Origin: a virus
IMG/VR virus record: IMGVR_UViG_3300032242_001077
Span: 1-25,733 of that record
DNA: 25,733 bases
Direction: 5' to 3' (one strand)
Numbering within the stretch: position 1 is the first letter of the stretch; each line of letters opens with the position of its first letter. Made by a program: the position numbers and the translations under genes. The notes beneath the pieces were generated by a model. It was not told where the DNA came from and made no database searches. It was given only the letters and a program-made list of their open reading frames with translations. Of the stretch, positions 7,723 to 23,793 are shown piece by piece.

Positions 7723-7958
7723 CGGACCGAGGCTACAGCATTCCGGCGTCCATTTTGGAGGGTCCGGTCGAGGTTTCGGCGCCTGTAAACCCGACAATGG
7801 CCCGGCGCGGCATTGATGAAGCGGTTCTGGTGCGGCTTATCACCGACGCCACCATCGACTACCGGGTTCATGAGGATGTGGTGAAGCGCGGATTGTCTCA
7901 ATTCATCGCTGGCCGCGTGAAGGGGTTCATTGGGCTGACCATGGCGCCGAAACCATGA
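7719..7958 (+). CDS. Hypothetical protein, 79 aa
   Basis: I do not recognise the family. The first 25 residues are polar with prolines; the rest (RRGIDEAVLVRLITDATIDYRVHEDVVKRGLSQFIAGRVKGFIGLTM) is predicted helical with a short hydrophobic end. It overlaps both neighbours by four bases, so it is coupled within the small-gene operon. Confidence 0.65.
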   Translation: MTDRGYSIPASILEGPVEVSAPVNPTMARRGIDEAVLVRLITDATIDYRVHEDVVKRGLSQFIAGRVKGFIGLTMAPKP

Positions 7959-8341
7959 GGGTCCTGATCTGCGGCGGCCGAGATTATGCCGACTTCGAGG
8001 CGGTGCAGGATGATCTGGAGCGCCTTTTGGCTGTCCACGGGGCTGATCTGACGGTCATCCATGGCGGGTGCGCCACCGGCGCGGACAAGATCGCCGACAA
8101 ATGGGCCAAGGCTAACGGGATCCCCCGGCAGGTTTTCGCCGCCGACTGGCTGACGCACCAGAACAAGGCCGGTCCGATGCGCAACCAGCGCATGCTGGAC
8201 GAGGGAAAGCCCGATCTGGTGATCGCATTCCCGGGTCGGCGGGGCACGGCGGACATGATCCGGCGCACCAAGGCCGCTGGCGTGCGCCTGATCGACTATA
8301 ACGCCCGCGCGAAACTCATGATGAAGGAGAAAACCCCATGA
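7955..8341 (+). CDS. DUF2493 (YspA/SLOG-like) nucleotide-binding protein, 128 aa
   Basis: This is a Rossmann-type protein of the DUF2493 family, part of the SLOG superfamily thought to bind nucleotide-derived ligands. Visible motifs in order: MRVLICGGRDYAD at the N-terminus, VIHGGCATGADKIADKWA (glycine-rich ligand loop), FAADW, GPMRNQRML, and DLVIAFPGRRGTADMI. All family landmarks are present and the length is typical. In phages such proteins are frequent early genes with no proven role; interference with host nucleotide signalling or defence is conjecture. It is ATGA-linked on both sides. Confidence 0.85.
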   Translation: MRVLICGGRDYADFEAVQDDLERLLAVHGADLTVIHGGCATGADKIADKWAKANGIPRQVFAADWLTHQNKAGPMRNQRMLDEGKPDLVIAFPGRRGTADMIRRTKAAGVRLIDYNARAKLMMKEKTP

Positions 8342-11001: not shown

Positions 11002-12627
11002 TTGCGCATCGACATCGGAGGGGGCCTTATTGTCGATCCCGTCCAGCAGCTCAAGGCTCTGGACCGGGCTGAGTATGAGGACAGCCTCTACCTGTTTCTT
11101 CGGGAGGCGTGGAAGTATATCGATGCCTCCCCGTGGAAGGATGGATGGCCAATCGAGGCTGTGGCCGAACATCTTCAGGCCGTCGCAGACGGCGATATCA
11201 AGCGCCTTATCATCAACATCCCGCCGCGCTGTGGAAAGAGCACTATCACCTCCGTGGCCTTCCCGGCGTGGGTCTGGGCCCAGCCCTACAACAGCGCCAC
11301 CTCCGGGCCGGGTGTTCAGTTCCTGCATGCCTCCTACGCCCAGCAGCTCACCCTGCGGGACAGCGTCAAGTGCCGCCGCCTGATCGAGAGCCCATGGTAT
11401 CAGGAGATGTGGGGCGACCGTTACCAGCTCAGCAGCGACCAGAGCACCAAGAGCCGCTTCTCCAATGACCACAGCGGCGAACGCCTGATCACCTCGGTCG
11501 GCGCGGCGGTGACCGGCGAAGGCGGATCCATCATCGTGGTGGACGACCCCAACGCGGCCTCGGAGGCCTTCTCGGAGGCGACTATCCAGTCCACCATCGA
11601 CTGGTGGGACAACGCCATGTCCACCCGCCTGAACGACCCCAAGACCGGCGCCTACGTGATCATCCAGCAGCGCCTCGCCGAAGACGACCTGACTGGCCAC
11701 ATTCTTGAGGGCAACACCGGCGACTGGACGCACCTGTGCCTGCCCATGCGCTATGAGGCCGCCCGGTCCCTGCCGACCAAGATTGGCTGGAAGGATCCGC
11801 GCGCCGTCGAGGGTGAGCTGATGTGGCCGGATCGGTTTGGGGATCAGGAAGTCACGGTGCTGGAAAAGCAGCTTGGCCCGTTCCAAGCCGCCGGGCAGCT
11901 CCAGCAGCGGCCTGAGCCCGCCGGTGGCGGCGTGATCAAGCGGGAATGGTGGCAGCTCTGGGAGCCAGAAACCTTCCCGCCGATGGACTTCATCATCGCC
12001 TCCCTCGACACCGCCTACACCCTGAAGCAGACCAACGACTTCAGCGCCCTCACGGTCTGGGGGGTCTTCTCGACTGACGCTTCGGCCACCGTGGGTCGGT
12101 ATATCGATGCCGAGGGCCGACCGGTCTACATTGACCGGACCTACAACGACAGCGCCCCCAAGGTCATGCTCATGTATGCGTGGCAGAAGCGGCTGGAGCT
12201 GCATGAGCTGGTCGAGGAGGTCGCCAAGACCTGCAAGCGCCTGAAGGTCGATGTGCTGCTGATCGAGAACAAGGCCGCCGGTCACTCGGTGTCGCAGGAG
12301 CTGCGCCGCCTCTACAGCCACGAGCGGTTCTCGGTTCTGCTGCACGACCCCAAGAGCATCGACAAGCTGTCCCGCCTCTACTCCGTTCAGCATTTGTTCT
12401 CAGAGGGCATGGTTTACGCTCCCGACCGGGCTTGGGCGGAAATGACCATCACGCAAGTAGGGCAATTCCCTAAGGGCAAGCACGATGATATCGTGGACAC
12501 CGTCTCACAGGCGCTGCGGCATCTTCGGGACCTTGGGCTCCTGACCCGCAGCGATGAGCGGAGCCACGAGCTGGAGAGCATGAAGACCTACCCCGGCGGC
12601 AAGGATCAGCCGCTCTACCCAGCCTGA
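11002..12627 (+). CDS. Terminase large subunit (TerL), 541 aa
   Basis: This is the ATP-driven DNA packaging motor and headful nuclease. The N-terminal ATPase carries a Walker A-like IPPRCGKST (residues 73-81) and a Walker B SIIVVDDPN (about 176-184). A coupling motif is not obvious. The C-terminal RNase H-like nuclease has ASLDTAYTLKQTNDFSALTVWG (Asp336), VDVLLIENKAAG (Glu422) and KHDDIVDTVSQAL (Asp495/Asp496). These are the expected acidic metal ligands. Length is normal. The start is a TTG at 11002 with GGAGGAG upstream, 3 bases after the TerS stop. The Cys in Walker A, where many relatives have His or Gly, is a minor variation. Confidence 0.93.
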   Translation: MRIDIGGGLIVDPVQQLKALDRAEYEDSLYLFLREAWKYIDASPWKDGWPIEAVAEHLQAVADGDIKRLIINIPPRCGKSTITSVAFPAWVWAQPYNSATSGPGVQFLHASYAQQLTLRDSVKCRRLIESPWYQEMWGDRYQLSSDQSTKSRFSNDHSGERLITSVGAAVTGEGGSIIVVDDPNAASEAFSEATIQSTIDWWDNAMSTRLNDPKTGAYVIIQQRLAEDDLTGHILEGNTGDWTHLCLPMRYEAARSLPTKIGWKDPRAVEGELMWPDRFGDQEVTVLEKQLGPFQAAGQLQQRPEPAGGGVIKREWWQLWEPETFPPMDFIIASLDTAYTLKQTNDFSALTVWGVFSTDASATVGRYIDAEGRPVYIDRTYNDSAPKVMLMYAWQKRLELHELVEEVAKTCKRLKVDVLLIENKAAGHSVSQELRRLYSHERFSVLLHDPKSIDKLSRLYSVQHLFSEGMVYAPDRAWAEMTITQVGQFPKGKHDDIVDTVSQALRHLRDLGLLTRSDERSHELESMKTYPGGKDQPLYPA

Positions 12628-12634
12628 GGACGCC

Positions 12635-12862
12635 ATGATAACCCCCATGCACATCACGCCGGTCCGGGCCTCTGCCACGGTCACCATGCTGAAATTCGGC
12701 TCTGAGCCGACATGGGAGGTCAACGTCTGGGGTGAGGAGCCGCATGACAGCAGGCGGACCTACACCATCAAGGCGAAAACTGATAATGATGCCGCGTTTG
12801 AGGGTATCCGTCAGTTCTGCGAAGAGATGGAAGCTCTGGATAGCGCACCGAAGGACGACTGA
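12635..12862 (+). CDS. Hypothetical protein, 75 aa, between TerL and portal
   Basis: I do not recognise the family. The protein is beta-rich at the start (HITPVRASATVTMLKFGSEPTWEVNVWGE) and helical at the end (AAFEGIRQFCEEMEALD). GAGG lies upstream of the ATG at 12635; an ATG at 12647 is an alternative start. Its place between packaging and portal genes suggests a head-related accessory, without direct evidence. Confidence 0.65.
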   Translation: MITPMHITPVRASATVTMLKFGSEPTWEVNVWGEEPHDSRRTYTIKAKTDNDAAFEGIRQFCEEMEALDSAPKDD

Positions 12863-12863
12863 C

Positions 12864-15155
12864 ATGGCCATGACCCCGGGCTTGAGCCCCTCTATCCGGC
12901 AGTCTGGACTGGGCGGCGCCGAGTTGGCCAACGATGACGACGTTCAGGTCATCGTGGATGACGGCGAGCCGGGTGATGCCGAGGTCAAGGACGAGAAGGG
13001 AAACGTCATCCAGATCGAGCATGATGACGGCTCGATCACGATTTCCCTTGATGGCTCTCCGGTGGTTCCGGCCAAGAACAAGGGTGATCGCGGCTGGTTC
13101 GACAATCTGGTCGATGACATCCCGGACGGTGAGCTGAACCGGATCTCATCCGATCTGCTGCGCGGCATCGATGACGACCTCAACAGCCGCAAGGAATGGA
13201 TCGAGGACCGCACGGCGGGCGTCAAGCTGCTGGGGCTGAAGATCGAGATCCCCGGGCTCGGGGGCGGGTCTGACAGCGCCCCGGTTGAGGGCATGTCCAA
13301 GGTTCGCCACCCCCTGATGCTGGAGGCCGTCCTGCGCTTTCAGGCAAATGCCCGGTCGGAGCTTCTGCCGACCGATGGCCCGTGCAAGATCCGCAACGAT
13401 GACAACGATGCTGATCTGGCCGAAGACCTGCTGGCCTCGGCCTACGAGAAGGACATGAACCACTACCTGACGACCACGGCGTCAGAATACTATCCCGACA
13501 CGGACCGGATGCTGTTCCTGTTGGGCTTCGGCGGGACGCAGTTCAAGAAGGTCTACAAGTGCCCCCTCCGCAACCGCCCCGTCTCCGAGACGGTGGACGC
13601 GGACGACCTGATCGTGAACCAGACCGCCACCGATCTGCAGAACGCCAAGCGGGTCACCCACCGGGTGATGATGCGGCCGTCCACGGTGCGCCGGATGCAG
13701 CTCCTTGACGTCTACCGCGATGTCGAGCTGAGCACGCCGCTGCAGCCGGATCTCGACAGCCTGCAGCGTGAGGAGAAGGCGCAGCAGGGTCTCGACCCCG
13801 GCGGCGGGAACCCAGAAGACCGCGACCGGCAAATCTACGAGTGCTATTGCGAGCTTGACCTCAAGGGGTATGAGCACAAGTGGAAGGGCAAGCTGAGCGG
13901 CCTTGAGGTGCCCTACGTCGTCACGATTGACGTCTCCTCGCGCCAGATCCTGTCCATCGTCCGCAATTTCAACGAGCCCGCCAAGGACCGCCTGCCGGTC
14001 GCCCGCAGGCGCTTCGTCCAATACACCTTCGTGCCGGGCTTCGGCTTCTATGCCATCGGCCTGCTGCACATCCTCGGCAACACCACCAACGCGGTCACGG
14101 CCGCATGGCGGGAGCTGCTGGACAACGGGATGTTCGCCAATTTCCCGGGCTTCCTGATTGCCAAGAGCGGGGCCCGCCAGAACACCAACATCTTCCGGGT
14201 GCCGCCCGGTGGCGGGGCGCAGATCGACACCGGCGGGATGCCCATCAGTCAGGCCGTCATCCCCCTGCCTTACCAGACCGGCGGCATGGCGCCGCTGATG
14301 CAACTGGTCGAGGACATCGCCCAGACCGGCATGCGGATCGGCGGCACGGCTGAAACGCAGGTGGGCGAGGGCAAGGACGAGATGCCGGTCGGGTCAACGC
14401 TGGCCATGATCGAGCAGGCTACCAAGGTCATGAACAGCGTCCACAAGCGGCTGTGCGCGGCGCAGGCGGTGGAGCTGCAGCTCATTGTCGAGTGCTTCAA
14501 GGAGAACCCTGAGTGCTTCTGGCAGAGCGATGACATGCCATCCAAGACCCCGTGGGATCAGGACACGTTCATGCGCGCCGTGAACAACGTCAATCTGGTG
14601 CCGCAGGCGGACCCCAATACGGCCAGCCATGGCCAGCGGATCATGAAGGTCATGGGCATGAAGCAGTTGCAGGCCCAGAGCCCGCAGCTTTACGACGCCC
14701 GGGCCGTGGACACCGCCGCGCTCAAGACGCTGGGCTGGTCGAACCCCAACGAGTTCCTGACCCAGAAGGCCCCGGATCCGACGCCTGAAATGCTCAAGGG
14801 TCAGGCGGAGGCCAAGGTCGCCCAGCAGGAGGCGGACGCCAAGACGCTGGACAGCCAGACCAAGGCCAAGGAAACCGACGCCAAGATCCAGCAGGGCGCG
14901 TTTGCGCCCAAGCCTGACGGCGGTCTGGCTGGTGGTGCGCCGCAGGGCGACACGCAGGCCGACATGATGACGGCTCAGGCTCGCCTGATCGACGCCCAGA
15001 CCAAGTCCCAAGCCATCGGCGTCAAGCATGCCGAGACGCAGATGGACGACCAGAACCGGGATCTCGACCGTCAGGGCCGCGAACGCGTTCAGATCCTTGA
15101 GATCGCGCGCGACGTCTTGCTCCATGAGCCGCGCCCAGAGGGGAAGAAAGAATGA
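12864..15155 (+). CDS. Portal protein, P22-like, 763 aa
   Basis: This is the dodecameric vertex ring through which DNA enters and leaves the head. The core from residue about 80 has typical portal sequence: WIEDRTAGVKLLGL, then HPLMLEAVLRFQANARSELLP, then YYPDTDRMLFLLGFGGTQFKKVY, then an INxVTAAWRELLDNG-type helix with AIGLLHILGNTTNAVTAAWRELLD. The large size fits P22-type podovirus portals. The C-terminal 110 residues are a Lys/Gln/Ala-rich helical barrel. The N-terminal 60 residues are very acidic (NDDDVQVIVDDGEPGDAEV) and resemble the start of the scaffold at 18469. The ATG at 12864 is chosen because it follows the previous stop by 1 base with AAGGACG upstream. Confidence 0.9.
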   Translation: MAMTPGLSPSIRQSGLGGAELANDDDVQVIVDDGEPGDAEVKDEKGNVIQIEHDDGSITISLDGSPVVPAKNKGDRGWFDNLVDDIPDGELNRISSDLLRGIDDDLNSRKEWIEDRTAGVKLLGLKIEIPGLGGGSDSAPVEGMSKVRHPLMLEAVLRFQANARSELLPTDGPCKIRNDDNDADLAEDLLASAYEKDMNHYLTTTASEYYPDTDRMLFLLGFGGTQFKKVYKCPLRNRPVSETVDADDLIVNQTATDLQNAKRVTHRVMMRPSTVRRMQLLDVYRDVELSTPLQPDLDSLQREEKAQQGLDPGGGNPEDRDRQIYECYCELDLKGYEHKWKGKLSGLEVPYVVTIDVSSRQILSIVRNFNEPAKDRLPVARRRFVQYTFVPGFGFYAIGLLHILGNTTNAVTAAWRELLDNGMFANFPGFLIAKSGARQNTNIFRVPPGGGAQIDTGGMPISQAVIPLPYQTGGMAPLMQLVEDIAQTGMRIGGTAETQVGEGKDEMPVGSTLAMIEQATKVMNSVHKRLCAAQAVELQLIVECFKENPECFWQSDDMPSKTPWDQDTFMRAVNNVNLVPQADPNTASHGQRIMKVMGMKQLQAQSPQLYDARAVDTAALKTLGWSNPNEFLTQKAPDPTPEMLKGQAEAKVAQQEADAKTLDSQTKAKETDAKIQQGAFAPKPDGGLAGGAPQGDTQADMMTAQARLIDAQTKSQAIGVKHAETQMDDQNRDLDRQGRERVQILEIARDVLLHEPRPEGKKE

Positions 15156-16567
15156 TCCAGATCCCGAAGCGCAAGATCGAGCACGCCATTGACGTAGCCA
15201 AGAAGCTGGCCAACTCGGTGTCCCCGGGTTCCGGCGACGTGAAGATCACAAAGCCCGGCCAGCCGGTGCCGATCCATCACGTCCCGGTGCCGGGTTTTGC
15301 CAGTGGCGGGGCAGCCAAGATAAAGACGCTGATTGACCGCCGACCTGCGATGGACGGAAACACTTCTCAAGAGGTGGTCGGGCCAGCGCATGACACCCCC
15401 ACCAAATCCCTTGCTGAGGCTTTTAAGCGCGCCATAGAGCACCATACATCGTTGCCTATTCAGCAAAGGGCGCTCAATAGCAAGGCTATGGCTGATCGGA
15501 TGAGGCCATATCTCGGTGTGGATAACCAATCTGGCAGACCCAAGCCGATCATCACATCCAATCGGAAGCTGGTGAAGGCGGTCAAAGGGTATGAGGCTGG
15601 AGATGGTTATGAAGCAAGCGACCCGCTTTCGCTCCCTGATGGTCGTGGGGTCGATACCGTGGGCGTTCCTTTGTCTCCTGCTACTGAGCATGGCAGTCTG
15701 AAAATTTGTCCGAACAGCGGGTCCTGCAAAGACGTCTGCTTGGGAAAAACGTCAGGAAATTATGGCGCCTCTTACGAGGTCAATTGGCCGCGCATCAACA
15801 GCGCCCGGAAAACCAACGCCATGCTGCATGATCCGGAAGCGTTTGCTGTCCGCCTGCATGACGAAATTGCTCAGGCCAAGATGCAGGCCCAGCTTGACGG
15901 AAACCACCTCGGGGTGAGGTTGAATACGCTTTCGGATCTTCACCCCAGCATTCATGAGCCGATCATCAAGGCCCACCCGGATGTGACGTTCTATGATTAC
16001 ACCAAGATGAAGCATTACCCGGTAGCGCCCAACCATCACTACACCTACTCCTCAACGGGACTGACCCAGCCGGAAGGCATCAATGGGATCAAGAAGGGTG
16101 AGGGGGTCTACAACCCGCATGGGAACTGGCATGTCATGCGGAACCACCTTGAGGGCGGCCGGAACGTGGCCATGGTTTTCAGCCATCAGCATCACCTTCC
16201 CCATGAGGTCCATGACCTTGAGACCGACAAGAGATATCGCGTCGTGGACGGGACGACCCACGATTTCAGGCCTCTGGACCAGCAGCCTCCGGGATCTCCG
16301 GGTGTTATCGTTGGTTTGCAGAACCTGACCAATAAGGGGGTCAAGGACGAGGCCCATAGAGACAGCCATGGGTTTGTGGTAAAATACGACCCGCAGATCC
16401 AAATGGAAGTGAACAAAAGAACCGGTGAGCCGACAAAGACCCCTGTCAAGGGGCCAAGTCCGGGGCGCCATCCGGTAACCGGCAAGGCCCTTTCCGGGCC
16501 CACTATCCCGACAAACAGGACTGTGGTTATCGCACCACAGCCGAGGAGCAGGCCAAATGCCACATAA
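15152..16567 (+). CDS. GP88-domain-like protein, 471 aa, in the head operon, chimeric
   Basis: Role unknown. A central domain resembles the mycobacteriophage gene product 88 (GP88) family: VPLSPATEHGSLKICPNSGSCKDVCLGKTSGNYGA, with C186, C192 and C196. It is followed by helices, a histidine-rich stretch with KMKHYPVAPNHHYTYS, and a C-terminal pattern of NVAMVFSHQHHLP, YRVVDGTTHDFRPLD, PGVIVGLQNLT and HGFVVKYDP. The three cysteines suggest a metal or Fe-S site, which is inference. Residues 1-55 use the GC-rich codons of the neighbours and end in GFASGGAAKIKTL. From about nt 15310 codons become T/A-ending (AGG, ATA, TCT, GAT). This suggests a foreign domain fused to a native phage segment. It is coupled to the portal gene by ATGA. 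Confidence 0.65.
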   Translation: MIQIPKRKIEHAIDVAKKLANSVSPGSGDVKITKPGQPVPIHHVPVPGFASGGAAKIKTLIDRRPAMDGNTSQEVVGPAHDTPTKSLAEAFKRAIEHHTSLPIQQRALNSKAMADRMRPYLGVDNQSGRPKPIITSNRKLVKAVKGYEAGDGYEASDPLSLPDGRGVDTVGVPLSPATEHGSLKICPNSGSCKDVCLGKTSGNYGASYEVNWPRINSARKTNAMLHDPEAFAVRLHDEIAQAKMQAQLDGNHLGVRLNTLSDLHPSIHEPIIKAHPDVTFYDYTKMKHYPVAPNHHYTYSSTGLTQPEGINGIKKGEGVYNPHGNWHVMRNHLEGGRNVAMVFSHQHHLPHEVHDLETDKRYRVVDGTTHDFRPLDQQPPGSPGVIVGLQNLTNKGVKDEAHRDSHGFVVKYDPQIQMEVNKRTGEPTKTPVKGPSPGRHPVTGKALSGPTIPTNRTVVIAPQPRSRPNAT

Positions 16568-16739
16568 CCACCCTCCGAAAGAATACGCTCGTCAGCAGTT
16601 TCACAACATCGACCATTTTGACGCCAAGGATTACGTGCGTCCGGAATGGTATGAGATGCCTCAAGTGGCCCATCACTTCTCTCACGGAGGGGCCGTGGTC
16701 CAGCGCGCCATGGACCTGATCCAGCGCCACAAAAAATAG
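16557..16739 (+). CDS. Small His-rich protein with a Gly-Gly motif, 60 aa
   Basis: I do not recognise a named family. The N-terminal half is rich in His, Asp and aromatic residues (HNHPPKEYARQQFHNIDHFDAKDYVRPEWYEMPQ). The C-terminus FSHGGAVVQRAMDLIQRHKK carries the phenylalanine-x-x-Gly-Gly-x-Val motif seen elsewhere in this block. It overlaps the end of the GP88-like gene by 11 bases. Confidence 0.65.
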   Translation: MPHNHPPKEYARQQFHNIDHFDAKDYVRPEWYEMPQVAHHFSHGGAVVQRAMDLIQRHKK

Positions 16740-16753
16740 TCTACAAACTGGAC
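16736..16753. promoter_or_regulatory. Second copy of an 18-bp motif (ATAGTC-N-ACAAA-N-TGGAC)
   Basis: It matches 3685-3702 at 16 of 18 positions. Both copies lie at intergenic sites just upstream of plus-strand genes. This copy lies in a 72-base gap before the gene at 16812. No clear -35/-10 pair surrounds it. Confidence 0.35.
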
Positions 16754-16811
16754 GATCTCGTGATATTTGTGGAACTCCATCCCCGGGACGCCGGTGATCA
16801 GGGAGACAGCC

Positions 16812-17861
16812 ATGTCCGAGATGTCCGAGAAGGTTCGCCGCGAGCGCCAACAAAAGGCCGAACGCTATTGCCGAACTGACCCCAATCAAAAAGTTGATGC
16901 CTCCGGCTATCGACCGCCGGACGCCCTCAATGCAGATACTCAGACCGGCGCCCGGCCCCACCCGCGAAAGTTCAAGCGCGGCGGCAGCGTGAAGGTCGAG
17001 GGCGAGGGCTCCACCCGCAATGTCGGGCGCATGCCCCGGGCGGCGGGCGGAAAGATCCCCAAGGGCTACTACGACGACAACAAGCCAAACCTGCGTCTTG
17101 TGAAGGTCCACACAGGCCCCAACGGGCATGTGGCCAAGGTCTACAAGGATAAAGACTGGGACGAGCACCGGGTGAAGTATTTCCGCCCGGACGGCACCTA
17201 CCTGTCCAAGGCCGACAGCCACCACAGCGACAAACAGGACGCCCATGACGATGCCTTGTCGGCCGTGGAGCGCGGCACGTTCAAGCGCGGCGGTTCGGTT
17301 CACTCCGACCGTGCCGAGGATCTGGCGCTCATCCGCAAGGAGGTGAAGTCCTCAGCCTTGCGCAAAGGTCGCGACACGGGTGGCGCGGCGAATACACAAA
17401 TGCCCCCTGATCTGAAGGCTCTCTACGACAAACGCGCTCAAACCGCTGGTCACAACAAACGGTCGCGCATTCAAGAGCAGATTGACAAGATGGAAAGCGG
17501 CGCGCCGAAGGACCGCGTGGCCCGCGCCGAGGGCGGCAAGGTCAAGCACACGAAGGGCACCAACATCACGATCAACATCGGCGAAAACAAGCCGCCGGTG
17601 CCTCCGATGATGCCGCCTCCGCACCCCCCAATGATGCCACCTCCGGGCCCGCCTCCGGGCATGCCGGGCGCTCCGCCTCCGGGCGCCGGTGGGCCTCCTC
17701 CCGGCGCGCCGCCTCCCGGTATGGCTGGTCCGCCGCCGATGCCGCGCGCACGGGGTGGCCGCGCCTTCACCGCAACCAAGATGCTGGCCGAGCACGATAC
17801 CGGCTCCGGCGGCGGCAAGGGCCGTCTCGCCAAGATCCGGGCCTACGGCTGTCAGGACTAG
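16812..17861 (+). CDS. Proline-rich protein with four Gly-Gly motifs, 349 aa
   Basis: I do not recognise the full-length family. The N-terminus is basic (EKVRRERQQKAERYC). Gly-Gly motifs occur as FKRGGSVKVEG, FKRGGSVHSDR, RAEGGKVKHTK and RARGGRAFTATK. A middle segment (DWDEHRVKYFRPDGTYLSKADSHHSDKQDAHDDAL) matches a small domain common in phage accessory proteins. From about nt 17590 to 17745 lies a Pro/Met/Gly/Ala tract of PPG-type repeats, like a polyproline-II rod. The end is a short basic helix (KGRLAKIRAYG). GGGAGA precedes the ATG at 16812. An upstream start at 16767 has no such site. It could be a flexible virion or head-assembly linker, which is inference. Confidence 0.7.
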   Translation: MSEMSEKVRRERQQKAERYCRTDPNQKVDASGYRPPDALNADTQTGARPHPRKFKRGGSVKVEGEGSTRNVGRMPRAAGGKIPKGYYDDNKPNLRLVKVHTGPNGHVAKVYKDKDWDEHRVKYFRPDGTYLSKADSHHSDKQDAHDDALSAVERGTFKRGGSVHSDRAEDLALIRKEVKSSALRKGRDTGGAANTQMPPDLKALYDKRAQTAGHNKRSRIQEQIDKMESGAPKDRVARAEGGKVKHTKGTNITINIGENKPPVPPMMPPPHPPMMPPPGPPPGMPGAPPPGAGGPPPGAPPPGMAGPPPMPRARGGRAFTATKMLAEHDTGSGGGKGRLAKIRAYGCQD

Positions 17862-17868
17862 GGAGTGA

Positions 17869-18066
17869 ATGAGAACCTTCAGCGATAGGTTCGAGGAGCA
17901 GCTAGTCAAAATGCTCCTTGAGGAAATTGAAAGGTCATCGGTGGCGCTGGCAAATGGCTCCGCCGCTGACTTTGCAGAATATAAGTTCCAAGCAGGTAGG
18001 GTAAATGGCCTCAGGCTGTGCATCGACTACTGTGAAGAAGCAAGATCAATCATATCGAGAGGTTAA
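17869..18066 (+). CDS. Small helical phage protein, 65 aa
   Basis: Function unknown. RTFSDRFEEQLVKMLLEEIERSSVALANGSAADFAEYKFQAGRVNGLRLCIDYCEEA fits a two-helix hairpin, and the pattern 'LANGSAADxAEYRxxxGxxxGL' recurs in small proteins of podovirus head operons. GGGAG lies upstream of the ATG. It starts 7 bases after the proline-rich gene and ends 3 bases before the co-chaperonin gene. Confidence 0.65.
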   Translation: MRTFSDRFEEQLVKMLLEEIERSSVALANGSAADFAEYKFQAGRVNGLRLCIDYCEEARSIISRG

Positions 18067-18069
18067 TAC

Positions 18070-18462
18070 ATGCCATCCATGACTATGGATCACGAAAAGG
18101 ATCCCAAGTCTGAAATTCTGGATCGGATGGGGGATCTCAGCTCCGTTGAGATCTTCAACAATCAGGTCCTTTGCGCCGTCTACCAGCGACCCGAACGGAC
18201 CAAGAACGGCATCATCCTGACGTCCCAGACCCGGGATGAGGACAAATATCAAGGCAAGGTCGGCCTGATCGTGAAAATGGGTTCCGAGGCCTTCAAGGAC
18301 GCCTCGGACCAATGGTTCAAGGGCGCGACCTTTGACGAAGGTGACTGGGTGGTTTTCCGCCCGTCGGATGGCTGGAGCCTTGAGGTCAACTCAGTTCTCT
18401 GCCGCATTATCGATGACGTGAACGTTCGCGGTCGCGTCCAGCAGCCAGATCAGATTTGGTAG
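18070..18462 (+). CDS. GroES-like co-chaperonin, 130 aa
   Basis: This is a Cpn10-fold co-chaperonin analogous in role to T4 gp31 or host GroES. It would form a lid ring on host GroEL to fold the capsid protein. The pattern VLCAVYQRPERTKNGIILTSQTRDEDKYQGKVGLIVKMGS, with the mobile loop around TKNGIILT, matches phage GroES-like proteins. So do GDWVVFRPSDGWSLEVNSVLCRIIDDVNVRGRV towards the end. A 30-residue polar N-terminal extension precedes the fold. No GroEL gene is in the window, so a host chaperonin must be used. Its place before scaffold and capsid genes fits head assembly. Confidence 0.85.
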   Translation: MPSMTMDHEKDPKSEILDRMGDLSSVEIFNNQVLCAVYQRPERTKNGIILTSQTRDEDKYQGKVGLIVKMGSEAFKDASDQWFKGATFDEGDWVVFRPSDGWSLEVNSVLCRIIDDVNVRGRVQQPDQIW

Positions 18463-18468
18463 GACATC

Positions 18469-19350
18469 ATGAGCAACCGCGAAGACGACATCGAAATCCA
18501 GATTGACGACCCGGCGGGTGCGCCGGAGGTCGTGATCGAGGACGCCCCTAAGGCGAAGCCGGTAGAGGCCGAAGAAGGTATCGAGGCGCTCCGGGCTCAA
18601 TTGGCCCGCGAGAAGGCCGCCCGGGTGGCCGCCGAGGGGCAAGCCGCCGAAGCCACGCGGACGGCCTACAGCGCCCGCGCTGAGGCCCACGACAGCAACC
18701 TGCACCTCGTCTCCAACGCCATCGACACGGTGCGCCAGTCGAACGACATCCTGAAGTCCAGCTATAGCGCGGCCATGGAGGCCGGTGACTATGACCGGGC
18801 GGCGGACATCCAGCAGGAGATGTCGTCCAACAGCGCCAAGCTGATGCGTCTGGAGGAGGGTAAGCAGGCTCTGGAGAGCAACCCGGCGCCGGTGACACCG
18901 CCCACCCTGCACCAAGATCCGGTGGAGGCCGTAGCCCGCTCCCTGACGCCGCGTTCCGGCGAATGGATCCGCAGGCACCCGGAATATGTCACGGACCCGC
19001 GCCTCTACCAGAAAATGCTGAACGCGCACTCCATGGCGGTCGCTGACGGCATCCCCGTGGACAGCGACGACTATTTCGCCGAGGTCGAGCGCGCCCTGCG
19101 GATCACCCGTGACGCTGTTCCGGCCCGGTCGGATGACGCCACCGAAGGCGCGGCCCGGGTCACGCAACATCGCGTGTCTCAGGCCCCGCCGTCCGCCCCC
19201 GTCTCGCGTGACGGCGCCGCGCCCGGCCAGCGACCCAACGTGGTCCGCCTGACCAAGGAGCAGGCCGAAATGGCCGAGATGATGGGCATGAAGCCTGCGG
19301 AGTATGCCAAGCACCTGCAGGACCTCAAGAAAGAAGGAAGGATCCACTGA
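18469..19350 (+). CDS. Scaffold-like head assembly protein, 293 aa
   Basis: This is a likely internal scaffold for procapsid assembly. It has an acidic N-terminus (REDDIEIQIDDPAGAPEVVIEDA), a long coiled-coil region of about residues 40-130 rich in Ala, Glu and Arg, a proline linker, and a C-terminal helical pair (KEQAEMAEMMGMKPAEYAKHLQDLKKEGRI). The last resembles capsid-binding helix-turn-helix ends of scaffolds. It lies between the co-chaperonin gene and the capsid genes, which is the usual place. The next gene begins at its last base. The identification rests on composition and context rather than on a sequence family match. Confidence 0.75.
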   Translation: MSNREDDIEIQIDDPAGAPEVVIEDAPKAKPVEAEEGIEALRAQLAREKAARVAAEGQAAEATRTAYSARAEAHDSNLHLVSNAIDTVRQSNDILKSSYSAAMEAGDYDRAADIQQEMSSNSAKLMRLEEGKQALESNPAPVTPPTLHQDPVEAVARSLTPRSGEWIRRHPEYVTDPRLYQKMLNAHSMAVADGIPVDSDDYFAEVERALRITRDAVPARSDDATEGAARVTQHRVSQAPPSAPVSRDGAAPGQRPNVVRLTKEQAEMAEMMGMKPAEYAKHLQDLKKEGRIH

Positions 19351-21193: not shown

Positions 21194-22108
21194 ATGGCTG
21201 TTAACCTTTCAGCAATCAAAGACCTTCTCCTGCCCGGTCTGCGTGGCATTGAAGGCAAGTATGAGATGATCCCATCTCAATACGACAAGATCTTCACCAA
21301 GCATGACAGCAAGCTGGCGCTCGAACGCACCGCTGAAATGCGTTACCTTGGGTTGGCTCAGCTCAAGACCGAAGGCGGCCAGACCGCCTTTGACAACGCA
21401 TCCGGCGAGCGTTTCGTCTATGCTCAGGAGCACTCGGAAATCGCCCTTGGCTATGCGATCACCCGCAAGGCCATCGACGACAACCTCTACAAGACGCAGT
21501 TCCATCCTTCGAACCTCGGCCTCATTGAGAGCTTCCAGCAGACGAAGGAAATCTACGGCGCCTCGATCTTGAACACGGCGACGACCTACAACAACGCAGT
21601 CGGCGGCGACGGCGTGGCGCTCTGCTCCACGGCCCACCCCATCGACAGCGGCACGGTCGCCAACACGCCGGTCACGCAGGTGGACCTGAACGAGGCCACC
21701 CTGCTGAACGCGATGATCGCGGTCCGCACCAACTTCCGAGATCAGGCGAACCTCAAGGTCTTCGCCCGCGCCCGGAAGCTGATCATCCCGCCTCAGCTTG
21801 AGCCGGTGGCCATCCGTCTGACCAAGACCGAGCTTCGCCCGGGCACGGCGGACAATGATGTGAACGCCCTGTTGACCACCGCCGGTGGCCTGCCTGAAGG
21901 CTATATGGTCGATGATTTCCTGACCTCCCAGTTCGCTTGGTTCCTGTTGACCAACATCGACGGCCTTGCCTACATGGAGCGCGTGAAGTTCGAAACCGAT
22001 ATGCAAGTGGACTTCGTGACTGACAACCTATTGGTGAAGGGTTACGAACGATACAGCTTTGGGTATTACAACTGGCGTGCGATCTACGGCTCGTTCCCGA
22101 CCTCGTAA
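21194..22108 (+). CDS. Major capsid protein, Mu gpT-like HK97 fold, 304 aa
   Basis: This is the head shell protein. Sequence such as LLPGLRGIEGKYEMIPSQYDKIF, DNASGERFVYAQEHSEIALGYAITRKAIDDNLY and LFVRARKLIIPPQLEPVAIRL-type (here LKVFARARKLIIPPQLEPVA) fits the Mu-like (gpT) branch of HK97-fold capsid proteins. The end, FETDMQVDFVTDNLLVKGYERYSFGYYNWRAIYGSFP, is the conserved P/A-domain closing motif. Length is typical for an uncut subunit without a delta domain. AGGAGCTAGGTAA precedes the ATG. The scaffold at 18469 and the co-chaperonin at 18070 are its likely assembly partners. Confidence 0.9.
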   Translation: MAVNLSAIKDLLLPGLRGIEGKYEMIPSQYDKIFTKHDSKLALERTAEMRYLGLAQLKTEGGQTAFDNASGERFVYAQEHSEIALGYAITRKAIDDNLYKTQFHPSNLGLIESFQQTKEIYGASILNTATTYNNAVGGDGVALCSTAHPIDSGTVANTPVTQVDLNEATLLNAMIAVRTNFRDQANLKVFARARKLIIPPQLEPVAIRLTKTELRPGTADNDVNALLTTAGGLPEGYMVDDFLTSQFAWFLLTNIDGLAYMERVKFETDMQVDFVTDNLLVKGYERYSFGYYNWRAIYGSFPTS

Positions 22109-23364: not shown

Positions 23365-23793
23365 ATGAAGGGTCATAAGGAAAACGAGCGGCGTCACCGC
23401 AAGACTGGTGGCGTCAATGAGGCCGAGATGGACCTCAAGGTGAAGCCTTCCGCGCGCGTGAACGCCCCCAAGGTGGATGACGCGGCTGAAGAGCGCGCGT
23501 GCGGTGGTCCGGTCAAGGGCCGCCACAAGCGTAAGAGCGGCGGCGCCCTGCACAAGGCTAACACCGGCGAAGGCTTCGGCCCGCAGGACGAGCCGACCAA
23601 GCGTGCGCGCGGCGGCGGCGTCAAGGGCAAGCATGTGGGTGATGTCGAGGGCGAAGGCGCCAAGCACCATGCCGGGCGCAAGCCTCGTGCACGGGGTGGC
23701 AAGGCGGCCTCGGACACCCATCCGTTCACTTCGGCTGCCCACGGCCAACAGCCCAAGGGTCGCAAGCTCGACATGGAGATGGACGGGGTCTGA
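23365..23793 (+). CDS. Basic Gly-Gly-motif protein, 142 aa
   Basis: I do not recognise the family. It is strongly basic and low in hydrophobic residues (KGHKENERRHRKTGG, KGRHKRKSGGALHKAN, KRARGGGVKGKHVG, RKPRARGGKAASD). The repeated [KR]x(0-2)GG[A-Z][VA]K motif is the same as in the genes at 16557 and 16812. It is probably disordered and could bind DNA or nucleoprotein inside the head, which is inference. AAGGAAGG precedes the ATG. It ends shortly before the terminator at 23821. Confidence 0.7.
   Translation: MKGHKENERRHRKTGGVNEAEMDLKVKPSARVNAPKVDDAAEERACGGPVKGRHKRKSGGALHKANTGEGFGPQDEPTKRARGGGVKGKHVGDVEGEGAKHHAGRKPRARGGKAASDTHPFTSAAHGQQPKGRKLDMEMDGV

Follow-up and report, generated by a model that had tools for sequence, protein, structure and literature searches.

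A GP88 gene and its small partner form a cassette in a hypervariable cargo slot beside the phage portal gene and may encode a radical-SAM-like virion effector

Passages in the main text of PMC5512222 describe polyvalent proteins as linked to portal and terminase genes and injected into the host with the DNA. According to the same passages, phages encode up to 35% of them and likely package these, in most cases alongside a portal-terminase system, and Alt of phage T4 is an ADP-ribosyltransferase that is packed in the head and injected with the DNA. The terms 'GP88' and 'radical SAM' (S-adenosylmethionine) have no occurrence in the main texts of PMC5512222, PMC9503650 and PMC7824862. Here we analysed a GP88 gene in IMG/VR record IMGVR_UViG_3300032242_001077, positions 1 to 25,733; this whole stretch of 25,733 nucleotides (nt) is the window. 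The gene forms a two-gene cassette with a small open reading frame (ORF), termed QFH, and occupies a hypervariable cargo slot directly after the portal gene. We propose, with about as much confidence for as against, that the cassette encodes a radical-SAM-like effector that is probably delivered with the DNA. The cassette comprises the following features.

15152..16567, plus strand: GP88 fusion ORF (protein P0001), 471 amino acids (aa), ATG start, with Pfam and PHROG matches
15152..15316, plus strand: leader, aa 1-55, with a predicted helix at aa 6-21, low-confidence (disordered) from aa 24, a GFASGG motif and phage-typical codons
15401..16564, plus strand: region kept in relatives according to the alignment (aa 84-471, includes the GP88 domain)
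15674..16315, plus strand: Pfam GP88 match, aa 175-388
15707..15739, plus strand: Cys cluster C186 X5 C192 X3 C196, predicted between the first strand and the next helix
16557..16739, plus strand: QFH partner ORF, 60 aa, overlapping the end of the GP88 ORF by 11 nt, with N-terminal YARQQFHN and the C-terminal tag HFSHGGAVVQRAMDLIQRHKK

The GP88 domain (PF17338) is the sole Pfam domain recognized in P0001, with a match over aa 175-388 at an expectation value (E) of 1.6e-17 and 64.5 bits against a cut-off of 24.4. A first-pass annotation of the DNA had described a GP88-like pattern with a CX5CX3C cluster in an ORF at 15152-16567, all of which was borne out, the coordinates being exact. PHROG 1617, a family of unknown function, also matches P0001 (E=1.6e-29). 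GP88 is without functional description in Pfam or PHROGs, and literature searches gave no account of the family among the matches listed. A chance ORF at 15152-16567 is ruled out by its homologues and codon use. The cluster consists of C186, C192 and C196, and every one of the 216 loci with a GP88 match has all three cysteines; these matches were found without requiring the cysteines, among 217 loci searched with repeated contigs included. Over the 216 loci the first gap varies from 4 to 9 residues and the second is 3 (C-X4-9-C-X3-C). Seven further residues (R256, N258, S261, D262, Y281, D282 and Y283) are kept in 216 of 216 as well. Alignment A3 has 43 rows, matched by the GP88 profile in 43 of 43 cases at E up to 10 (best 8.8e-54), and 12 charged or polar residues besides the cysteines are invariant in it. 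Its rows were chosen by the Cys/YDY pattern, so that 43/43 cysteines there are no test; alignments A1 (16 rows) and A2 (9 rows) were picked without the Cys pattern, and A4 has the cysteines at 90% or more because at least one row is cut behind them.

QFH lies directly after the fusion-type GP88 in 100 of the 106 loci with room for it, the remaining nine of 115 GP88 loci having been excluded because there was no room or no ORF was called. This count depends on the method: the strict pattern gave 50, a first profile 86 and the final profile, built including more divergent members, 100. The six loci without a following QFH are L050-L053, in which the two are fused, the distant solo-like form L048, and L112. 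The fusions place QFH in frame behind GP88, and comprise one identical protein (L050-L052) and L053. In 30 of the 50 strict-pattern loci the GP88 and QFH genes overlap by 4 nt. The QFH family has a conserved N-terminal FYxQF(H/P) motif and a variable C-terminus, and the pairing spans different virion modules, including lineages with a portal ~27% identical or undetected. A scan with QFH alone confirmed 29 loci: in 28 of them a GP88 ORF stops at most 11 nt upstream, and the contig of the last one offers just 135 nt on that side. This test is less independent than it appears, because 22 of the 29 contigs, the seeds' own included, were already known through GP88; among the seven new ones, six carry GP88 and one is the contig with 135 nt upstream. 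Across the 80 portal loci described below, QFH was found only on contigs with GP88, and the one match in isolated phages (E 0.1) is probably due to chance. Given the 100/106 linkage, the fusions and the 28/29 in the QFH-only scan, GP88 and QFH are a two-gene cassette.

No QFH match was found in the 77 loci of the solo-GP88 set (L117-L124 and L159-L227). Solo queries or phage records had supplied these loci, which were not each checked as solo and include L124 as a repeat of L048. One of them, L117 4344-5678 in the 309-kb Tunturiibacter phage Tunturi_5, encodes a GP88 with an N-terminal extension of its own and is annotated 'minor head protein'.

The region into which the cassette is set was surveyed through the portal, for which 354 relatives were confirmed and the best 80 kept; 44 of these 80 loci have at least 2.5 kb after the portal. 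The flanking features in the window are listed below.

11002..12627, plus strand: terminase large subunit by profile matches, start uncertain
12870..15155, plus strand: portal protein (SU10_portal, phrog_1216), start uncertain, ORF opening at 12732
16794..17861, plus strand: conserved Gly-Gly (GG)-rich low-complexity ORF closing the slot
18070..18462, plus strand: GroES-like co-chaperonin by profile matches
21194..22108, plus strand: major head protein (phrog_371)

The portal stop and the GP88 start share 4 nt (ATGA). On this side the annotated placement between portal and head-assembly genes holds; on the other, the 60-aa QFH ORF, the GG-rich ORF and a 65-aa ORF precede GroES and the head genes. 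The slot, measured from the portal to the GG-rich ORF or GroES, ranges from under 200 bases (L266, L305) to ~6 kb and contains large ORFs that differ between phages. From 170 slot ORFs of 150-1499 aa, 103 representatives were derived, and 59 of them, longest first, were scanned against Pfam, revealing the ADP-ribosyltransferase domain ART-PolyVal in 32, GP88 in 6 and InPase in 3; the name ART-PolyVal refers to polyvalent proteins. GP88 and ART-PolyVal share one ORF in three of the eight GP88 proteins scanned (L053 and L105, with L054 below the Pfam cut-off). Slot ORFs were called by a simple longest-ORF procedure, which may have taken in genes outside the slot wherever GroES is off the contig. 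The IMG/VR loci include repeated contigs and are thus not independent: L248, L271, L277 and L293 are the same contigs as the GP88 loci L052, L111, L056 and L051, and the slot-survey tally of seven includes three leader-only loci (L228-L230). The family of the closing ORF has 38.7 GG per 1000 aa over 56 relatives against 19.8 in shuffles, about twice as many. Three large ORFs occupy the slot of a 61-kb Manatee Spring genome (capsid 87%, portal 61%); its annotation names none of them GP88, and tblastn with P0001 matched none. In Caulobacter phage RW and phage DSL-LC04 the slot contains small ORFs only. The portal-to-GroES interval is thus a hypervariable cargo slot rich in ART-PolyVal domains, mostly in uncultured phages; the GP88 gene is one occupant, and the enzymatic part of the slot proteins is exchanged between phages.

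Phage DSL-LC04, a portal relative, also has a gene annotated PcfJ-like between terminase and portal (L336 5454-7931), perhaps a second cargo position. Elsewhere in the window, PHROG matches identify a DNA helicase at 42-2183 (E 2e-23) and a 'GTP-binding domain' family member at 7955-8338 (E 9e-28), and a tRNA scan found none.

The GP88 ORF is built of two parts that differ in codon use. Over aa 1-55, the GC content at third codon positions (GC3) is 0.84 and the codon adaptation index (CAI) 0.68, and the sections after the leader have CAI 0.36-0.49. The whole gene, at 0.475, has the lowest CAI of 12 genes, the other 11 ranging from 0.60 to 0.78. The contrast between leader and rest was reached in 0 of 2000 synonymous shuffles, and a likelihood change point falls after codon 47. 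The leader contains GFASGGAAK, with GG at aa 52; other Gly-Gly motifs are HFSHGGAVV in 16557-16739 and several xxGGxV in 16794-17861 and 23365-23793. The last of these is a short ORF after the capsid genes with repeated xxGG stretches, a possible internal virion protein.

The same leader forms the N-terminus of the ORFs directly after the portal in L228, L229 and L230, joined there to different proteins, the ORFs being 796 aa, 526 aa and 1015 aa long. The four leaders share a helical start, SPG, PGxPIPV and PVPGFAxGG; by our reading of the sequences, the L229 and L230 bodies appear to have an ART-like start (YHGS/YHGT). The portals of these three loci, 71-72% identical to that of the window, are the closest of the 80 kept. 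A leader profile gave strong matches in L228-L230 and L072, a match at 9e-4 in L054 and matches at 0.008-0.02 in L245, L247 and L105, all at the N-terminus of slot ORFs, and no significant match in L231-L235, the next closest portals (66-69%). The similarity stops at aa ~53, close to the codon break. Leader and body are, judged by sequence, separate and exchangeable modules, since one leader precedes different cargo in the loci whose portals are most similar. The first-pass annotation had called the gene a chimera, with first codons typical of the phage, a remainder of different codon use and a Gly-Gly motif as in the neighbours, and as anatomy it was right.

Many slot proteins share a motif of another kind, a Gly-Gly with a short helix-like (A)(L/M/V/I)x(L/I/V/T/A) element after it, referred to as the tag. 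Its patterns were written after examples had been seen, and L231-L307 served as held-out loci, though some ORF ends had been viewed beforehand. In the held-out loci, 47 tags were found compared with 2.3 in shuffles, distributed over 28 of 106 slot ORFs, and each of eight other virion gene classes gave 0, with at most 1.1 expected. Within complete held-out slot ORFs of 250 aa or more, the last 45 aa contain 24 of 31 tags (3.0 expected), and slot proteins thus often end in the Gly-Gly/helix tag. Of 43 QFH proteins, 12 have the helix element at their end (1.0 in shuffles) and 11 a different recurrent ending. This second ending, ~HPAxxIPGxHIxxxxxGxPxFTG (e.g. L058, L062, L086, L103, L104, L110 and L116), also occurs on some slot ORFs (L051, L054).

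As to the age of the arrangement, GP88 and this portal type occur together in 53 loci, 52 of them with both on one strand. In these 52, the GP88 ORF starts within about 300 nt of the portal match end in 38 and within 5 kb in 14. The first-pass annotation had taken the domain to be recently captured; a single recent capture is unsupported, given the 52 same-strand loci and a partner ORF that is kept across different virion modules, and a series of exchanges over time is the better fit. It had further named, as what would speak against a chimera, relatives with uniform codon use and no GP88. The relatives match GP88, and in the 40 loci left after removing copies and short matches, the body GC3 is below the portal GC3 in 33 and slightly higher in 7, with a mean difference of -0.12 over all 40. 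The CAI contrast ratio of the window body (~0.63) is stronger than in most relatives, which have a mean of 0.85 and fall below 0.75 in 7 of 40, and a younger exchange in the lineage of the window is therefore possible. Distance correlations with the portal are 0.36 for GP88 (n=36), 0.74 for terL (n=22), 0.56 for the scaffold (n=16) and 0.29 for GroES (n=18); the comparison lends mild support to repeated exchange, and is given little weight because the portal-GroES correlation is also low. For a bacterial origin of the subfamily, two exact peptide patterns, which reach close copies only, returned 30 stretches in genome contigs, none of them a relative.

The fold was modelled with AlphaFold for P0001 (43 sequences; predicted local distance difference test score (pLDDT) 84.8, predicted template modelling score (pTM) 0.79) and for a solo GP88 about 30% identical to it (24 sequences; pLDDT 89.3, pTM 0.87). 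In both models strands alternate with helices, and the cysteines are placed between the first strand and the following helix; the clusters of radical-SAM enzymes sit after strand 1. Structural comparison by VIA-align gave QueE as the best match of the P0001 model (Z 5.5, 176 aligned, 5.0 Å), and QueE (Z 6.4), NifB (6.2) and TYW1 (6.0) for the solo model. Ranks 1-19 (down to Z 4.3) and ranks 1-7 (down to Z 4.8), respectively, are what we take to be radical-SAM enzymes, though some titles do not say so, and unrelated barrels rank below them. A distant kinship with DUF5131 / phage Gp37-Gp68 (PF07505) was suspected from motifs; this profile matched neither the window nor any of 40 further records, of which the majority contain GP88.

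In the proposed working, GP88 and QFH would be made late together with the head proteins and would enter the prohead through the tag, with QFH binding GP88 as its adaptor. Both would be released into the next host along with the DNA, where GP88 would modify a host target early in infection. Packaging, which the first-pass annotation had suggested, is a reasonable idea because the neighbourhood is a cargo slot with domains of the virion-effector type. Solo GP88 genes lie near the left end of Lo5R7ANS and of HTVC120P, in the latter preceding the genes for integrase and RNA polymerase. The left genome end is the place of early genes, and the position suggests an early-acting product. An early-acting solo form and a fused form in a cargo slot could be reconciled if the fused form is delivered ready-made with the virion.

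A number of observations weigh against this proposal. Lying between portal and head genes, GP88 might just be a late-acting gene. No cultured phage with the GP88-QFH cassette was found, and in the cultured relative HTVC023P (capsid 40%, portal 31%) GP88 is solo, upstream of the terminase and outside the slot. P0001 has only the GG at aa 52 and is without the full tag pattern, which is on the 60-aa ORF instead; even there, only 12 of 43 QFH proteins have the helix element and 20 have neither recognized ending. N-terminal tag positions are not enriched (1 of 31 held-out with 6.0 expected, and 11 of 68 with 10.9 expected when all loci are taken), and because of this and of the missing pattern in GP88 the leader is treated as a module of its own and is not equated with the tag. 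With respect to the fold, Foldseek against the PDB found nothing at E<=0.001 for either model, and all GP88 Z values lie under 8, the level below which VIA-align warns of merely common arrangements; as such values can mean no more than that, GP88 is worded as a radical-SAM-like Fe-S protein, a prediction from models, and not called a radical-SAM enzyme. Its CX5CX3C also differs from the canonical CX3CX2C, and non-canonical radical-SAM motifs exist. A search of the PDB by sequence gave three matches at E 0.6-1 for P0001 and none for the GP88 profile. The same points favour a serious contender, to which we give somewhat less than an even chance: that GP88 is not a radical-SAM protein, its three cysteines binding zinc or being structural and its barrel resemblance generic. 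Against it speak the radical-SAM enzymes at the top of both lists, above other barrels, for two models so distant in sequence, as well as the placement of the cysteines after strand 1 and the invariant polar and charged residues.

The other alternatives concern how the cassette works. GP88-QFH might act late inside the producing cell, e.g. by modifying or assembling a virion protein, and never be injected, the position beside the portal reflecting its substrate. The shared strand with the head genes and the 4-nt overlap with the portal gene fit such a role, as do promoter-like and terminator-like sites in 12500-18500 that stay within about one standard deviation of shuffles; yet the slot is hypervariable and almost empty in some relatives, and hence dispensable for assembly, its neighbours are of effector type, and solo GP88 lies at the left end in some phages. 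We consider late action unlikely. Quite unlikely, in our judgement, is that QFH is the GP88 substrate, a precursor peptide of a radical-SAM-like maturase whose modified product is used in or by the virion. The tight linkage, the small size of QFH, a conserved N-terminal and variable C-terminal part as in known precursor peptides, and the presence of SuiB and SkfB, maturases of ribosomally synthesized and post-translationally modified peptides (RiPPs), among the structural neighbours would all suit it, but in-frame fusions as in L050-L053 would be unusual for an enzyme and its precursor, and the absence of QFH from the solo-set loci indicates that the enzyme family can do without it. QFH as an adaptor is preferred. 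Finally, the contrast between leader and body could be chance codon variation in a native gene, with the leader similarity due to ordinary descent. The seven relatives in which the body GC3 is not below that of the portal would agree with this, whereas the shuffles and the same leader on different bodies in L228-L230 contradict it and make it highly improbable.

Returning to the proposed effector cassette, its wider form would be that widespread uncultured phages load their heads by a modular C-terminal Gly-Gly/helix tag on exchangeable slot effectors, including a new radical-SAM-type enzyme with a dedicated QFH adaptor; this we hold to be rather unlikely as a whole. Provided that the cargo does reach the head, foreign proteins could be loaded into phage particles with the tag as a short signal, and the slot would amount to a natural library of what phages inject first. 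Through its link with QFH and the radical-SAM-like model, GP88 gains a partner and a chemistry that can be tested. The literature matches listed included no radical-SAM effector injected by a phage, and GP88-QFH would be a variation on polyvalent and virion-delivered effectors that are already known.

Compared with these systems, the locus is closest to the polyvalent proteins as the passages of PMC5512222 present them: the window GP88 gene is likewise encoded with portal and terminase packaging genes, ART-PolyVal and InPase domains are its neighbours in the slot, and GP88 is fused to ART-PolyVal in some relatives. Unlike polyvalent proteins, which have two or more domains, P0001 has one recognized domain, and the locus has, in addition, a dedicated small partner gene and a C-terminal tag; we thus regard P0001 as the cargo of a polyvalent-type locus and do not file it as a polyvalent protein. 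The solo GP88 proteins of isolated phages (HTVC023P gp26, Lo5R7ANS gp02 and HTVC120P gp03) share the domain, the three cysteines, RxN..SD and YDY, but are 232-294 aa long (six examples), with no leader and no QFH match, and in HTVC023P lie outside the slot. The radical-SAM enzymes QueE, TYW1, NifB and MiaB resemble GP88 as the best structural matches of two models, with three cysteines after strand 1, and differ in having CX3CX2C in place of C-X4-9-C-X3-C, with no sequence match between them. T4 Alt is a different enzyme; GP88 would work in a similar way if it is packaged.

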